A DNA stretch of 23,857 nucleotides. Source: a virus. The notes below the pieces were generated by a model. That model did no database searches, was not told where the DNA came from, and saw only the letters and a program-made list of their open reading frames with translations. The position numbers and the translations under genes were made by a program. The DNA is taken from the IMG/VR virus record IMGVR_UViG_3300027631_000139, positions 1 through 23,857 of that record; one strand, written 5' to 3'. Positions 11 to 19,896 of the stretch are shown piece after piece (position 1 is the stretch's first letter; every line of letters begins with the position of its first letter).

Positions 11-39
11 TTGACAAATGGAAGCACCAACACTATATG
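11..39 (+). promoter_or_regulatory. Sigma70-like promoter upstream of the packaging genes
   Basis: A perfect -35 box TTGACA (11-16) is followed after 17 nt by the -10 box TATATG (34-39), so transcription should start near 46 and run into the terminase genes. The -35 box is preceded by TACCCC. The same 12-nt block TACCCCTTGACA recurs at the second promoter near 10718, which supports both as real elements. No activator site is recognised. Function is inferred from sequence only. Confidence 0.7.
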
Positions 40-6342: not shown

Positions 6343-7350
6343 ATGGCTATGTTGTCCCCCAGCGCCGTCCATATTGACGCCCCGCTTACTAACCTGACTA
6401 TCGCCTTCCTGCAAGATGCTAACGGCTTTATCGCTGATCGTGTTTTCCCGAAGGTTTCGGTTTCCAAGAAGACCGACAAGTACTACATCTACAACCGCGC
6501 TGACTTCAACCGCACTGGTCAAGTTCAGCCCCGCGCTCCCCGTACTCAGGCTCCTCGCGTTGGTATGTCCCTCTCGACGGATACCTACTCGGCTGACGTA
6601 TTCTCGCTGGCTACCGACTTTGACTTCCAAACTTTGGCTAACGAAGATGCAGCTTTGGACATCCGCTCGGCTGGCGCTCAGATGCTGACCCACCAACTGC
6701 TGATCGACCGCGAAATCAAGTGGGCTACTTCCTACTTCGCTGGTGGTATCTGGGGTACGGACTGGGATGGTGTCGCTGGCACTCCTTCGACCAACGAAGT
6801 TAAGCAGTGGTCGGACTACACGAACGCAACTCCGATTGTTGACGTTACCAACATCATGCGTACCGTGCAACTCAAGTCGGGTGGTTTCAAGCCCAACGTC
6901 ATGGTTGTCGGTAAGGCAGTTCGTGACGTTCTGGTTAACCACCCCACGATCTTGGCCCGCCTGAATGGTGGTGCTACGGTCTCGAACACCGCTCTGGTGA
7001 CGGATGCCAAGTTGGCTGAAATCTTCGGTGTGGAAGAGTTCTTGGTCATGGAGACCGTGAAGAACACCGCTGCTGAAGGTCTGACTGAATCGAATGCGTT
7101 CATTGGTGGTAAGGCTGCTGCCTTCTACTATCGTCCGCGCTCGGCTGGTCTGATGGTTCCTTCGGCTGGTTACACCTTCACTTGGGATGAGCTGGAAGGC
7201 GCTTCGGGTAGCGGCCTTTCGATCAAGTCTTACAAAGGTGACTATCTGGCTATCGACGGCATTGCTGAAGTTCTGGAAGCCAACATGGCTTACGATCACA
7301 AGGTTGTGTCGGCTGATCTGGGTGCCTTCATCGACACCGTTATCGCCTAA
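6343..7350 (+). CDS. Major capsid protein
   Basis: This 335-residue protein is in the expected slot after scaffold and decoration genes. The N-terminus (LTNLTIAFLQDANGFIADRVFPKVSVS) and the later SLATDFDFQTLANEDAALDI and LIDREIKWATSYF regions resemble HK97-fold capsid proteins of siphoviruses and Mu-like phages. The C-terminal half contains the expected KSYKGDYLAIDGIAEVLEANM ending, read in two pieces. Codon use is strikingly different from the neighbours: 15 of 22 serines use TCG and only one uses TCT. This suggests selection for fast translation. It has a GGA-type ribosome site. Confidence 0.9.
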   Translation: MAMLSPSAVHIDAPLTNLTIAFLQDANGFIADRVFPKVSVSKKTDKYYIYNRADFNRTGQVQPRAPRTQAPRVGMSLSTDTYSADVFSLATDFDFQTLANEDAALDIRSAGAQMLTHQLLIDREIKWATSYFAGGIWGTDWDGVAGTPSTNEVKQWSDYTNATPIVDVTNIMRTVQLKSGGFKPNVMVVGKAVRDVLVNHPTILARLNGGATVSNTALVTDAKLAEIFGVEEFLVMETVKNTAAEGLTESNAFIGGKAAAFYYRPRSAGLMVPSAGYTFTWDELEGASGSGLSIKSYKGDYLAIDGIAEVLEANMAYDHKVVSADLGAFIDTVIA

Positions 7351-7371: not shown

Positions 7372-7779
7372 ATGACCCGACCATTTATCCCCTTCTTCAA
7401 TCCTGCCCGTCCAGTGTATGTTAAACAAAATGACATACAAATGGCGGGTAAGTTTTGGAAGAAGGGTGAAAGATTCAACTGGGACTTCTTCGGAACCCCA
7501 CACGAAACCATCCAACAGATGTTCTTCAATGATCAGCTTCACCACAACGAAGCCCTAGAAGATGTAGCTGTAACAAGGATTGCCATTGGTGATGGTCTAG
7601 CAGAACTCTCGCTAGAACAACTACAGGCTCTCGTTGAGAATATCAATGGGAAAGTTAAAGCCAAGACAAAAGACAGCAAAGAGTTCTTGCAAAAGAAATG
7701 CTCTGTCAGCAGGATCAAAGATAAACAAATTGGTCTTATTCGTAGGTGGCGTACCTCCTATGGTGAACTAGAAAACTAA
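7372..7779 (+). CDS. Hypothetical protein between capsid and connector genes
   Basis: A 135-residue soluble protein that I do not recognise. The N-terminal half is aromatic and basic (RPFIPFFNPARPVYVK, FWKKGERFNWDFFGTP), followed by a helical region (LSLEQLQALVENINGKVKAK) and a Lys/Arg-rich end (RIKDKQIGLIRRWR). The start is well set by AAGGAGTGG 9 nt before the ATG. The position suggests a head-completion or assembly role, and the basic C-terminus could contact DNA or capsid. Both are inference only. Confidence 0.7.
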   Translation: MTRPFIPFFNPARPVYVKQNDIQMAGKFWKKGERFNWDFFGTPHETIQQMFFNDQLHHNEALEDVAVTRIAIGDGLAELSLEQLQALVENINGKVKAKTKDSKEFLQKKCSVSRIKDKQIGLIRRWRTSYGELEN

Positions 7780-7795: not shown

Positions 7796-8269
7796 ATGTC
7801 TTGGTCCTACGATCCAAACACTTTGAACACTACTACCAGTGCGGGTAGGCTCAACACTGTTCGCCTTCTAGTAGGTGATACAGATACCACAGACCAACTT
7901 GTCCAGAACGAAGAGATTACATTTGCCCTGTCTCAGACTGGCGATAATGTTTACTACGGTGCTGTCTGGATTTGTAGGGCCATTGCTGCTAAGTTCAGCC
8001 GTCTGGTCACAACGACCCTTGATGGCGCTCTAAGTGCCAACTATAGCGACAAGGCAAAGCAATACAATCAGCTTGCTGTACAGATTGAAGTCCAAGGCAA
8101 GAAGACCTCTGGTAAGGCTCTTGGTGTCTTTGCTGGTGGTATCTCTGTAAGCGATATGACTGTAGTCAACGCTACAACTGATCGTGTGAAACCCGCTTTC
8201 AGCATTACCCAATTCGATAACCCAGAGGCGGGAGACCAATACCTTCCCGATGAACCTTATGGCGTTTGA
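7796..8269 (+). CDS. Head-tail connector (adaptor) protein
   Basis: This 157-residue protein begins SWSYDPNTLNTTTSAGRLNTVRLLVGDTD, followed by NEEITFALSQTGDNVYYGAVWICRAIAAKFS, the arrangement seen in small helical connector proteins that dock under the portal. It lies directly after the capsid region and overlaps the stopper-like gene by 20 nt. Family length and position match an adaptor (Ad1-type) protein. There are no enzymatic motifs. Confidence 0.7.
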   Translation: MSWSYDPNTLNTTTSAGRLNTVRLLVGDTDTTDQLVQNEEITFALSQTGDNVYYGAVWICRAIAAKFSRLVTTTLDGALSANYSDKAKQYNQLAVQIEVQGKKTSGKALGVFAGGISVSDMTVVNATTDRVKPAFSITQFDNPEAGDQYLPDEPYGV

Positions 8270-9463: not shown

Positions 9464-10618
9464 ATGGCTTTTGCACAGGGTTCACGTTCTGGACTATCTT
9501 ATGTGGTTGAATCCACTTTCGGCACTACTCCCGCTTCTCCCTCACTCGTTCAGTTGCCCTACAACACTCACTCTTTGGATATGACCAAGGATCGTGTATC
9601 GGGTAATGAAATCCAACCTGATCGTATGCTTCGTGTTGACCGTCACGGTAATCGTCAAGCTGGTGGCGACATCGTTGCTGATCTTCGTAAAGCTGACTTT
9701 GACCCCTTCCTCGAAAGCGCCCTTATGAGTGCCTTTGCGGATTCGGCTACCATTGCTACTCTGACCGCTACCAGTGCTGGTGGTACTGCTACTTTGACGT
9801 TTGCCAGCCAGACTATCCCCCCGTTCCCAGTTGGTTCTGCTATCACTGTTGCTGGTGTTACCCCCTCTGGCTTTAATGGTGTATTCACTGTAACTGCTTG
9901 CACTGCCACTTCGGTATCTTACGCCAACGCTACTGCTGGCCCGCAGACTGTTGCTGGTACGATCAAGAACAGGGTTCTGAAGGTTGGGAATACAGCTAAG
10001 TCAATGAGCATTGAAGATGCTGCTGATGATATTAGTCAGTTCCGTCTCTTCACTGGTATGACGGTTAACACTGCTGCTATCTCCATTAAGCCCAATGCTA
10101 TGATTGCTGCTACGTTCAGCATGATCGGCAAAGACATGACCATCTCTGGTTCATCCCTTGATGCCGCAAAGACTGCAAGCAGCACCAACCAGCCTTTTGA
10201 TGCTTACTCTGGCACTATGGCTATCGGTAACGCAAGTGCAGCGTTGTCTTCTGTGGCTACGATCACTGGCATTGACTTCTCTATCACCAACGCACTTGCA
10301 CCTACCTTCGTTGTTGGTTCTGCCACAACCCCTCAACTTGAGTTTGGTATGGCAACTGTGGAAGGTACGATCACTGCCTACTTTGAAGATGCTTCCTTGA
10401 TCAACCGCTTTGTCAACGAAACGACTTCGGCCTTCCAAGTCACTGTGAACGATCCCAGTGGTGCTTCCAACTACACGTTTCACTTCCCCCGTGTGAAGAT
10501 CAATGGTGCGGCTGTTCCTGTTGGTGGTCCTACCTCGCGTATCGTCACTCTGCCCTTCGTGGCTCTGTATGACACCACTGAGAACAGCAACATCGAAATC
10601 ATCCGTAACCCTTCCTAA
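9464..10618 (+). CDS. Major tail tube protein with an inserted Ig-like domain
   Basis: This is a 384-residue protein. The start (SRSGLSYVVESTFGTTPASP) and the DRVSGNEIQPDRMLRVDRHGNRQAGGDIVADLRKADFD stretch, here in residues 43-80, are typical of the phage tail-tube family that forms stacked hexameric rings. Residues about 99-167 (SAITVAGVTPSGFNGVFTVTA and flanks) look like an inserted small beta-sandwich, since the tube fold resumes at IKNRVLKVGNTAKSMSIE. Such inserts project from the tail surface. The RBS AAAGGAAA is strong. It is the last gene before the structured intergenic region. Confidence 0.85.
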   Translation: MAFAQGSRSGLSYVVESTFGTTPASPSLVQLPYNTHSLDMTKDRVSGNEIQPDRMLRVDRHGNRQAGGDIVADLRKADFDPFLESALMSAFADSATIATLTATSAGGTATLTFASQTIPPFPVGSAITVAGVTPSGFNGVFTVTACTATSVSYANATAGPQTVAGTIKNRVLKVGNTAKSMSIEDAADDISQFRLFTGMTVNTAAISIKPNAMIAATFSMIGKDMTISGSSLDAAKTASSTNQPFDAYSGTMAIGNASAALSSVATITGIDFSITNALAPTFVVGSATTPQLEFGMATVEGTITAYFEDASLINRFVNETTSAFQVTVNDPSGASNYTFHFPRVKINGAAVPVGGPTSRIVTLPFVALYDTTENSNIEIIRNPS

Positions 10619-10627
10619 CATAAGCAT

Positions 10628-10704
10628 CCCCTTTAAACAAGGGGTAGGGACAGGATGATTGTGTCGGGCAGAAGTCCTGTCCCGAATTTCACTATCCGAC
10701 ACAA
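10628..10704 (+). ncRNA. Structured RNA: hairpin plus 9+9 bp H-type pseudoknot
   Basis: A hairpin CCCCTT (10628-10633) / AAGGGG (10639-10644) comes first. Stem 1 then pairs GGGACAGGA (10647-10655) with TCCTGTCCC (10675-10683), 9 bp without mismatch. Stem 2 pairs TTGTGTCGG (10659-10667), which lies inside the stem-1 loop, with CCGACACAA (10696-10704), 9 bp without mismatch. The crossing order makes an H-type pseudoknot with short loops (3, 7 and 12 nt). A T-rich run (10705-10718) follows. It begins 10 nt after the tail-tube stop codon. It could stabilise the 3' end of the head/tail-tube mRNA, act as an attenuator, or bind a ligand or protein. I recognise no named RNA family. Confidence 0.7.
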
Positions 10705-10723: not shown

Positions 10724-10752
10724 TTGACACGGGCATGACCACTCCCTATATA
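10724..10752 (+). promoter_or_regulatory. Second sigma70-like promoter, upstream of tail chaperone genes
   Basis: TTGACA (10724-10729) is followed by a 17-nt spacer and TATATA (10747-10752). The upstream stretch 10705-10720 is AT-rich like an UP element. The block TACCCCTTGACA is identical to that at the first promoter. It would start a new transcript near 10759 for the tail-assembly, tip and lysis genes. Confidence 0.75.
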
Positions 10753-10831: not shown

Positions 10832-10849
10832 AAGGACATCCCCGACATG
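10832..10849 (+). promoter_or_regulatory. Recurring ribosome-binding leader (copy 1)
   Basis: AAGGACATCCCCGACATG places the Shine-Dalgarno AAGGA before the tail-chaperone ATG. Very similar sequences precede the GNAT gene (16161-16178) and the fibre gene (19193-19209), sharing AAGGA, CCCGA and the ATG. Confidence 0.5.
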
Positions 10850-11245
10850 GACCTACAGAACCTTCTACCTACTTCTGACACTATTACTGTTATCCTTAAG
10901 CATCCAGTTACTGATGATGTCTTGATGAAGGATGATGGTGTTGAGATGTCAGTCACTGTGTATGCACCCCACTCAAAAGAGTATAAGGCTGCTATCCACG
11001 AACAGACCAACAAGCGTATCCAGAAAGCACAGAAGAGTAAGAAGATTACCTTCACTGCTGAAGAGATTGACCTTGCATCTGTAGAGTTGATGGCTAAGAC
11101 CACGAAAGATTGGGACTTGATCTTCAACAAGAAGTCCTTGAAATTCTCTGTGGCAGAAGCAATCGACCTTTATCAGAAACTTCCGTGGCTCAAAGATCAG
11201 GTCATTGAGGCTCAAGAGGATTACACCTCTTTTTTGAAGAAATAG
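10847..11245 (+). CDS. Tail assembly chaperone (lambda G-like)
   Basis: A 132-residue protein encoded just upstream of the tape-measure gene. The N-terminus is strand-rich (DTITVILKHPVTDDVLM), then an amphipathic Lys/Gln-rich helix and a segment with VELMAKTTKDWDLIF and FSVAEAIDLYQKLPWLKDQV. This KTTKDW-type region recurs in tail chaperones. These proteins coat the tape measure until the tube polymerises. The coding frame ends just after a slippery T TTT TTG site, so a fraction of ribosomes should produce the longer fusion described separately. It is the first gene of the transcript from the promoter at 10724. Confidence 0.8.
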   Translation: MDLQNLLPTSDTITVILKHPVTDDVLMKDDGVEMSVTVYAPHSKEYKAAIHEQTNKRIQKAQKSKKITFTAEEIDLASVELMAKTTKDWDLIFNKKSLKFSVAEAIDLYQKLPWLKDQVIEAQEDYTSFLKK

Positions 11246-15519: not shown

Positions 15520-16152
15520 ATGGCTAGAGATATTTTTCCATCAATCCTTCAAGCCATAACTGCTCCTGAAATCACACCTTTCTTTGCGGTTGATCTTATG
15601 TTCCAAGGTGGCCCTTTGTATATGTGGTCAGGCTACGGAGACTTTGTTAGGGAAGACACTGGTAATACCTATCTAGGCGCTGGTCAACTCCTTAACATCT
15701 CTACAGTCGAAGAGACTACAGAGATACAGGCTGTAGGGGCTAACTTTACTCTGTCTGGTATCCCTTCTAGCTTCTTATCCCTAGCACTACAAGAACCCTA
15801 TCAAGGTCGTGAGTGTAGGATTTACTTTGGTGTCCTTATTGGTGGTGGTCTTGCTACACAAGGTCTTGACACTATCACTACACAGTTTGGTGATCTCATC
15901 GTTCTACAGTCTGGTACACAGGGTTTCTTAGAAATCTTCAGTGGTGAGATGGATCAAATGAACATTGTAGAAGCAGCAGAAACTGCGACTATCTCTGTTA
16001 GTGCTGAGAATGCTTTGATCAAACTTGAACGACCTGTAGTACGAAGGTTGACTAACATCGATCAAAAGTCTAGGTACCCTAGCGATAAGGGCCTAGAGTA
16101 TGTAGCGGGCCTACAAGATAAAGAAATCTTCTGGGGACGTAAAGGATCATAA
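15520..16152 (+). CDS. DUF2163-like tail hub/assembly protein
   Basis: This 210-residue protein begins with ITAPEITPFFAVDLMFQGGPLYMWSGYGD, continues with EIQAVGANFTLSGIPSSFLSLAL and YQGRECRIYFGVLI, and ends with YPSDKGLEYVAGLQDKEIFWGRK. This arrangement resembles DUF2163-like tail proteins, including those in gene transfer agents of Rhodobacterales, where they sit next to the host-specificity protein. I infer a tail-tip hub or assembly role. There is no catalytic motif. The gene is only 23 nt before the GNAT gene. Confidence 0.55.
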   Translation: MARDIFPSILQAITAPEITPFFAVDLMFQGGPLYMWSGYGDFVREDTGNTYLGAGQLLNISTVEETTEIQAVGANFTLSGIPSSFLSLALQEPYQGRECRIYFGVLIGGGLATQGLDTITTQFGDLIVLQSGTQGFLEIFSGEMDQMNIVEAAETATISVSAENALIKLERPVVRRLTNIDQKSRYPSDKGLEYVAGLQDKEIFWGRKGS

Positions 16153-16160
16153 TCAGTATA

Positions 16161-16178
16161 AAGGACATCCCGATAATG
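16161..16178 (+). promoter_or_regulatory. Recurring ribosome-binding leader (copy 2)
   Basis: AAGGACATCCCGATAATG sets the GNAT start at 16176. It matches copies at 10832-10849 and 19193-19209, which share AAGGA and CCCGA. Confidence 0.45.
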
Positions 16179-16631
16179 TCTATTACTTATCAACAAGAGT
16201 TTCTAGATACCGTTGAGAAAGACATCAAACCCCTGATAGAAGAACATTGGGAAGAGATTGCCCTTAACAAGTCTGTTATTAAGTTAAACCCTGATTGGGA
16301 GGCTTATCACAGTCTAGAAGATAATGGCATATTGAAGGTATTCACTGCAAGGTCTGATAAAGAGTTGATTGGGTACTTTGTGGTTCTGATCAGAAATCAT
16401 ATCCACTACAAGGATCATATCTTTGCTGCTAATGATGTCCTGTTCCTAAAGCAAGAATATCGTAAGGGTCTTACTGGCGCTAAACTGATGAAGTTTGCTG
16501 AGAAGTGTCTTAAGGAGGATGGTGTATCTGTTCTTGTGGTAAACACTAAGAGGCACAAGCCCTTTGATGGGCTACTAGAGTGGTTAGGCTACAGCCATGT
16601 TGAAAACGTATATTCTAAATACTTGAGGTGA
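16176..16631 (+). CDS. GNAT-family acetyltransferase in the tail module
   Basis: This 151-residue protein shows a GNAT acetyl-CoA fold: LIGYFVVLIRNHIHYKDHIFA strands, then DVLFLKQEYRKGLTGAKLMKFAEKCLKEDG (about 88-117), in which EYRKGLTGAKL is the pyrophosphate-binding motif A, and LLEWLGYSHVENVYSKYL at the end. It would move an acetyl group from acetyl-CoA to an amine acceptor that is unknown here. Similar enzymes are frequently found beside phage tail-tip genes. It may modify a virion or host protein. The catalytic base cannot be fixed from sequence alone. Confidence 0.8.
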   Translation: MSITYQQEFLDTVEKDIKPLIEEHWEEIALNKSVIKLNPDWEAYHSLEDNGILKVFTARSDKELIGYFVVLIRNHIHYKDHIFAANDVLFLKQEYRKGLTGAKLMKFAEKCLKEDGVSVLVVNTKRHKPFDGLLEWLGYSHVENVYSKYLR

Positions 16632-19194: not shown

Positions 19195-19209
19195 GGAAAG
19201 CCCGATATG
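19193..19209 (+). promoter_or_regulatory. Recurring ribosome-binding leader (copy 3)
   Basis: AAGGAAAGCCCGATATG precedes the fibre start at 19207 and resembles copies at 10832 and 16161. Confidence 0.4.
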
Positions 19210-19896
19210 TCTCAACATGACTATATCATTGACAACCAACTAGCACCAGCGTTTCGAGCAGACTTGAATGCTGCTCTCAATGCCGCTGTTACTCAAAATA
19301 GTGGTACTACTGCTCCTACTACGACCTATGCAAATATGTTGTGGTATGATACTACTAATGACCTATTGAAAATCCGCAATGAGGCTAACTCAGGTTGGAT
19401 TACGGTGGGAACTGTAGATCAGACTAATAACGTCTTTGAGCCTAATCAAACTTTTGCTACATTAACACAAGCACAAGCTGGCACTGATAATACAAGGGCA
19501 ATGACTTCATTACGGGTGTCTGATGCTATTACAGCACAAGTTGGTGTATCAAACGCAGTGGTTGTTAAAACGGCAGTAAACGCCAGTGGATCAGCACCGA
19601 TCTATGCCTGTCGCGCTTGGGCAAACTTTGGGCCAACAGGTACAATTCGCGCATCAGGAAATGTGACTTCTGTTACGACAGGGGGGACTGGGATTTATAC
19701 GTTGAATTTTACAACTGCCCTTCAGGATGCAAACTATGTAGTGACAGGATGCACCCAGCGTGGCGCGACTGGCGGCAACGATGGTATGGTTGTTCCCGAT
19801 CAGGCCAATATGACAACAACATCGGCAAAAATATCAACTGTTAACGGCGGGGGCGGTTTTGCAACTGGCAACTGCTACATAGCTGTTTTCCGATAA
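19207..19896 (+). CDS. Tail fibre with variable C-terminal domain
   Basis: This 229-residue protein has an N-terminal helical part (DYIIDNQLAPAFRADLNAALNAAV) and a TTYANMLWYDTTNDLLKIRNEANSGWI region common to small phage fibres. A Thr/Ala-rich shaft follows, then a beta-rich head (RAWANFGPTGTIRASGNVTS, then NYVVTGCTQRG to the end). The head is the likely receptor-binding part. From about 19560 the codons shift to GGG, GGC and GCA instead of GGT and GCT, suggesting recent exchange of this part. Confidence 0.7.
   Translation: MSQHDYIIDNQLAPAFRADLNAALNAAVTQNSGTTAPTTTYANMLWYDTTNDLLKIRNEANSGWITVGTVDQTNNVFEPNQTFATLTQAQAGTDNTRAMTSLRVSDAITAQVGVSNAVVVKTAVNASGSAPIYACRAWANFGPTGTIRASGNVTSVTTGGTGIYTLNFTTALQDANYVVTGCTQRGATGGNDGMVVPDQANMTTTSAKISTVNGGGGFATGNCYIAVFR

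Follow-up and report, generated by a model that had tools for sequence, protein, structure and literature searches.

A conserved pseudoknot RNA behind the tail-tube gene of siphophages and its complementary boxes at start codons

What might a pseudoknot be doing in the gap between two structural genes of a siphophage? The locus that raises this question lies in a 23,857-base IMG/VR virus record, which was analysed as a whole and is called the window here. It contains siphophage structural genes, namely terminase, portal, scaffold, major head protein (6343-7350), neck, tail-terminator, tape measure and distal tail genes. The element lies on the 3' side of the gene for a major/minor tail (tail-tube) protein (9464-10618, + strand; phrog_290, E 2.6e-63), starting past its TAA stop and ending 142 nt upstream of the AUG of a tail assembly chaperone gene (10847-11245, + strand; phrog_313, E 5.3e-8), the presumed main target. 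The gap between the two genes is 228 nt long and also holds the Shine-Dalgarno (SD) sequence of the chaperone gene, AAGGA (10832-10836, + strand). The original prediction had expected tail-tip genes downstream; the next gene is the tail assembly chaperone.

Pseudoknot and covariation

The element, on the + strand, opens right after the stop codon with P1 (10628-10644), a 6-bp hairpin formed by CCCCTT (10628-10633) and AAGGGG (10639-10644). It continues with S1 (10647-10683), a 9-bp hairpin of GGGACAGGA (10647-10655) with TCCTGTCCC (10675-10683). The 5' strand of the second stem, S2, is TTGTGTCGG (10659-10667), which overlaps the loop core GUCGGG, or 'anti-box' (10663-10668); the 3' strand, CCGACACAA (10696-10704), is the near box. 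S1 and S2 stand in the crossing order of an H-type pseudoknot. The letters of both perfect 9-bp stems and of the 6-bp hairpin were all present as predicted. Nowhere else does the + strand of the window have a crossed pair of stems with 9/9 bp, and when the whole window was dinucleotide-shuffled 200 times, one shuffle contained such a pair. By plain fold energy the region looks ordinary (z -0.59), but nested folding is blind to pseudoknot pairing and thus leaves the knot unscored.

The decisive evidence, which confirmed the predicted pseudoknot as real and conserved, is comparative. We retrieved relatives with the tail protein only, making no use of the RNA, and read the gap in each of the 80 loci found. 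Nearly every readable gap contained P1, S1, the loop, an A/U-rich stretch of 11-17 nt and CCCGAC or a wobble variant of it, often followed by one or two further CCCGAC copies, the SD and a final copy touching the chaperone AUG. At the position of P1 most relatives have a short hairpin of variable sequence, and in most of them S1 is longer than in the window (12-15 versus 9 bp). The loop takes the form (U)GUCGGG(U/G), with the GUCGGG core, itself the criterion for locating the rows, in 57 of the 57 homologous elements analysed; the single gap lacking it (L039) is truncated. The near box is usually CCCGAC, at 11-17 nt from S1 in 44 of 47 cases. In two loci (L021 and L065) a small ORF replaces the downstream part of the gap; it resembles an HNH homing endonuclease (CxxC motifs) and stands right behind S1, in place of the near-box region.

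Because a MAFFT alignment (A1) misplaced the strands of S1, we counted covariation on a model-based alignment (12 founders and 57 aligned matches, about three of them false) and on explicit registers. Standard pairs made up 93.4% of the S1 cells, compared with 57.7% after shuffling of the 3' letters. Both sides had changed in all 14 of 14 pairs, doubly changed cells numbered 180 against 64 in shuffles, and the S1 covariation score was 0.859 against 0.224; none of 500 shuffles matched either the observed number of doubly changed cells or the score. With explicit registers, among representatives of at most 75% stem identity, strands paired with their own partners in 93%, compared with 68% when strands were swapped between relatives. 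S1 is also very stable, at a mean of -21.8 kcal/mol.

For S2, the six core letters are invariant in the collected set and therefore offer no compensatory test. We analysed instead the seventh (+1) pair, of the base after GUCGGG with the base before the near CCCGAC, in 48 representatives of at most 75% stem identity. These bases pair in 33 of 47 cases, against 21.3 expected (p=5e-5). The +1 base showed no such relation to the start-site box, with 21 of 45 pairing and 20.4 expected (p=0.48). The near copy is thus the pseudoknot partner, and the start-site copy has nothing beyond the core in common with it. Both crossing helices are supported by covariation, S2 through its +1 pair, so that paired changes in homologous gaps, which the original prediction had itself named as the support to look for, are found in each stem. 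The comparative data thus support an H-type pseudoknot RNA under selection.

Distribution among phages

In the genomes searched there was a single hairpin per genome, nearly always immediately upstream of the chaperone gene. A pattern search of IMG/VR for GUCGGG, CCCGAC and CCCGAC-AUG in that order gave, among the matches listed, dozens of hairpins with an S1 of at least 9 bp. In some of these the gene at the chaperone position belongs to a divergent branch of phrog_313 (L255, L385, L399) or is unrelated to it (L299 and L387, phrog_6454/phrog_2115; L465, phrog_19222; L381, no family). Two named phages carry the element, Roseobacter phage CRP-6 and Dinoroseobacter phage vB_DshS-R5C (R5C), the latter with an S1 of 10 bp and the loop GUCGGGUC; both infect Rhodobacteraceae.

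Not every phage with this tail protein has the element, as was evident from phages that lack the gap or fill it otherwise. The gap is absent from PaMx74 and QDWS359 and only short in Vibrio 2.117.O and Seurat, and in Jersey no chaperone is annotated at the position. P106B, X2_24, Effie and VW-6S have plain hairpins in place of the element, and 438212 has GTCGGG within a stem. In a set of element-less loci (L600-L603 and L605, comprising Rhizobium P106B and X2_24, Acinetobacter Effie and HHU4, and Pseudomonas VW-6S) plain strong hairpins, some of them terminator-like, precede the gene at the chaperone position. Inspection of gammaproteobacterial phages did not turn up the element, nor did a search, run without a positive control, of 248 genomes from the family of Paracoccus, by which Rhodobacteraceae were sampled. 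Prophage copies were sought in GTDB, where none of at least 120 stretches with the triple motif had an S1 stem of 9 bp or more.

No Rfam 15 family matched the element, either in the window and eight relatives (E<=1) or in six divergent relatives (E<=0.5), in keeping with the original statement that it belongs to no named RNA family. Two weak matches were put down to chance, one to mir-1289 in another part of the window (E 0.75) and one to sbrA in another part of the relative L061 (E 0.086). Our literature searches found no description of it. The element is thus real, widespread and, apparently, undescribed as a phage RNA.

Boxes complementary to the loop at start codons

The GUCGGG loop matches a second set of sites, CCCGAY boxes at start codons, which the original prediction did not foresee. 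In the window, CCCGAC at 10841-10846 (+ strand) touches the AUG of the chaperone gene, where 10 pairs with the loop would be possible, extending over AUGG. CCCGAY is present at this start in 92 of 102 distinct homologue contexts, a count partly conditioned by the fact that part of the chaperone set was fetched with a box-containing pattern; the counts for other genes are unconditioned. A further CCCGAC (7376-7381, + strand) lies right behind the AUG of the gene that follows the major capsid gene (7372-7779; post-capsid gene), for which 36 of 70 distinct homologue contexts have a box within -14..+13. On the same strand, CCCGAT stands upstream of the AUG of a 151-aa GNAT-like gene (box 16169-16174, gene 16176-16631; 19 of 41 homologue contexts, chiefly in the window's clade) and of a 229-aa tail-fibre-like gene (box 19201-19206, gene 19207-19896; 7 of 74). 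The former is an acetyltransferase-like gene (PF00583, weak) flanked by tail-tip and tail-fibre genes. The boxes of these last two genes do not strictly track the element, as G013 has the element and no box at its homologue of gene 16176. The gene at 15520 has CCCGAY in 4 of 52 distinct start contexts, and most other structural genes in none.

Altogether, the window has six + strand copies of CCCGAY, five of them at start codons. One of these (8246-8251, CCCGAUG) is inside an upstream ORF and may be a coding effect; we left it out as a target. Of 1167 SD-linked starts, 117 have CCCGAY nearby, and the corresponding numbers for three control motifs are 10, 6 and 4. Of the 117, 40 were not of the chaperone type and had no GUCGGG upstream.

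Several observations bear on what is conserved in these boxes. At the post-capsid gene, the window's clade has ATGACCCGACC (MTRP frame with codon CGA, which makes up 7.7% of Arg codons), and other relatives have ATGATCCCGACT or ATGAACCCGACT (MIPT and MNPT frames), ATGTCACCCGAC (MSPD; MSPDY/MTPDY frames) or a box upstream of the AUG. The same six letters thus occur in several frames and outside the frame, which points to selection on RNA or DNA rather than protein. In R5C, a distant phage whose capsid is different (P22-like), 21 start contexts were listed, and those with a box close to the start are precisely the two of the post-capsid and the chaperone gene; both boxes are GACCCGAC, upstream of the SD, and fit 8 nt of the R5C loop. 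One more CCCGAC precedes gp065 by about 28 nt. High-GC relatives have boxes immediately next to the SD, on one side of it or on both (CCCGACAGGAG), and arrays of two to four copies around the SD occur, with up to four in L465. Variants of the box are mostly C-to-U or A-to-G changes that would still pair with GUCGGG (CCCGAT, CCCGGC, CCTGAC, CTCGAC).

Boxes also occur on a separate gene in related phages. A gene of the P0001 family (185 aa, no Pfam or PHROG match) has CCCGAC or CCCGATG at its start in 7 of 8 homologues. In the whole genome G001 it is on the strand opposite the tail genes; homologues are also found in L590-L597, several of which have a TTGAC...TATA site upstream of this gene, and beside an apparent DNA polymerase gene in L277, L281 and L309.

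The box alone is weak evidence, and we rejected it as a sole criterion, since AAGGA-N-CCCGACATG is common in phage ribosome-binding sites with no hairpin found nearby. Proteins of 94-95 aa that share a pattern, probably the tail chaperones of actinophage-like phages (L239, L250, L258, L262, L265, L294, L302 and other viral_contigs loci), are preceded by AAGGAA-CCCGAC-ATG, again with no hairpin found nearby; this may be a related system or a coincidence of a favoured spacer in ribosome-binding sites. We also considered if the box might be a complement of 16S rRNA; the 3' half of one Rhodobacteraceae 16S contains no GUCGGG.

Regulatory function and alternative explanations

The match of GUCGGG to CCCGAY at the chaperone and other starts points to control of translation initiation, and complementarity between the loop and the ribosome-binding sites of the putative targets is conserved, as would be expected of a translational riboregulator. 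On balance, we think it probable that the element is such a regulator, with the loop pairing with boxes in ribosome footprints and lowering translation of genes behind abundant structural genes. In this model, the stable S1 in the 3' untranslated region (UTR) of the tail-tube cistron would display GUCGGG, and pairing with the near box, which closes the H-type pseudoknot, would store the loop. The alternative partner would be the identical box within the chaperone ribosome footprint; the loop could probably also pair, at a distance or in trans, with the post-capsid box and, depending on the clade, with further genes that carry a box. We infer that the loop, once paired at a start site, would mask the SD or AUG and reduce initiation, and the near box, by competing for the loop, could set or gate the strength of the effect. 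Given the lack of +1 covariation at the start-site box, the case for such start-site pairing would come from the 6-nt core, which is invariant, and from R5C.

Predicted energies are consistent with this competition. In the window, the loop would pair with the near box at -15.1 kcal/mol, with the chaperone start at -14.2, the 19207 start at -15.0, the post-capsid box at -12.5 and the 16176 box at -10.5 kcal/mol; the means for the near box and the ribosome-binding site are balanced (-13.3 and -13.9 kcal/mol). The boxed genes shared most widely come immediately after the two structural genes of highest abundance, which suggests that their low-copy products, encoded right behind the capsid and tail-tube cistrons, would be kept at small amounts. 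The loop-box system thus probably limits the protein output of boxed genes. Further observations weigh against the riboregulator: about half of the post-capsid homologues have no box within -14..+13, the rows of up to four boxes in L465 resemble a protein operator, and a promoter-like site separates the hairpin from the chaperone gene. This site, TTGACA-17-TATATA (10724-10752, + strand), occurs once in the window against 0.05 expected, and is retained in the window's clade (L608, L611-L613) although the spacer varies; a stricter promoter scan did not report it. In this clade some chaperone transcripts would begin downstream of the hairpin and thus lack it in cis, and could be reached in trans only.

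The main rival to RNA pairing is a protein that reads CCCGAY. Here, a phage or host RNA-binding protein would bind the boxes in ribosome-binding sites, and the GUCGGG hairpin or pseudoknot would be a competitor that hides or meters these sites. T4 RegA and CsrA recognize their own motifs in ribosome-binding sites. The arrays of two to four boxes around the SD, the boxes of the P0001 family on a separate gene of the opposite strand and the lack of covariation between the start-site copies and the loop flank would all suit an operator. However, GUCGGG is the exact complement of the box and is retained together with it, the variants of the box mostly keep pairing with GUCGGG, G-U pairs included, and in R5C the loop and both boxes were lengthened jointly. 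We therefore regard a protein operator as rather unlikely.

A switch acting only in cis, in which the ribosome-binding site is free when the loop holds the near box and closed when it holds the chaperone box, the other boxes being unrelated, would agree with the single copy of the hairpin, which in nearly all cases stands just ahead of the chaperone gene, and with the balanced energies. Yet it leaves unexplained the post-capsid boxes, which are conserved across reading frames and recur in R5C, and is in our opinion improbable.

It is still less probable that the hairpin and pseudoknot serve only to shield the abundant tail-tube mRNA at its 3' end or to terminate transcription in part, as the stability of S1 and the plain hairpins in the same gap of P106B, Effie and VW-6S might suggest. 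There is no U-tract after S1 in 54 of 57 relatives, a T-run of at least 4 follows it in the other three only, and a scan found no terminator-like site, which rejects an intrinsic terminator or attenuator. The invariant loop, the near box at its fixed distance and the start-site boxes would also be left without explanation, and neither 3'-end protection nor ligand sensing accounts for the boxes at other genes. Of the original functional reading, the selected H-type pseudoknot thus stands, and control of read-through, taken as transcription termination, is not supported; the function of the element is probably translational, not terminal. Finally, a chance or coding coincidence is scarcely credible, as the crossed pair of the one shuffle is set against covariation in dozens of phages, by which chance has already been refuted for the structure.

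The proposed riboregulator can be compared with known systems. Tail assembly chaperones are known for programmed -1 frameshift pseudoknots, and the element too is a pseudoknot near a chaperone gene. It lies, however, in noncoding DNA, after the TAA stop and upstream of the chaperone start, short of the AUG by the 142 nt given above, which excludes a role as a frameshift stimulator. Translational pseudoknots near ribosome-binding sites include SAM-II/preQ1-type riboswitches, the S15 and alpha-operon leaders and the T4 gene 32 leader. The element shares with them an H-type knot tied to initiation of a nearby gene, and its knot box lies right against the SD in high-GC relatives; it differs in having an unrelated sequence, no sign of a ligand or known protein, and a box that recurs at the AUG and at further genes. 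Mu-gpT-DE is a downstream-element RNA found after an abundant gene. The L17 downstream element is another (PMC2864571). Both, like the element, are structured RNAs located in a 3' UTR behind a highly expressed gene, but the element has no Rfam match and has a defined system of complementary boxes. Base-pairing regulatory RNAs encoded by phages include OOP, aQ, IsrK and STnc6030, which come from prophages or lambdoid phages and in several cases are antisense to a single gene (reviewed in PMC12197685). The element would likewise be a phage RNA controlling mRNAs through base pairing; in contrast to these RNAs it has a 6-nt loop, lies in the 3' UTR of a structural gene, has repeated boxes at several starts and is widespread in environmental siphophages.

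The most interesting part of the finding is the shared box system, which extends beyond the pseudoknot originally described. More tentatively, it may be a widespread and undescribed phage RNA regulon, in which a hairpin loop from the end of the tail-tube message would act in cis and in trans on CCCGAY starts and fix the stoichiometry of virion assembly by RNA-RNA pairing; its targets would be the genes that follow the two structural genes of greatest abundance and, depending on the clade, further late or replication-region genes. For annotation, a GUCGGG hairpin with CCCGAY start boxes is a simple bioinformatic criterion, and CRP-6 and R5C, as isolated phages, allow direct testing. The contrast between many copies of capsid and tail-tube proteins and few copies of the products of the next genes in the same operon is usually credited to weak ribosome-binding sites and frameshifting. 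If the riboregulator is true, many aquatic phages would have in common a dedicated RNA device for this stoichiometry.
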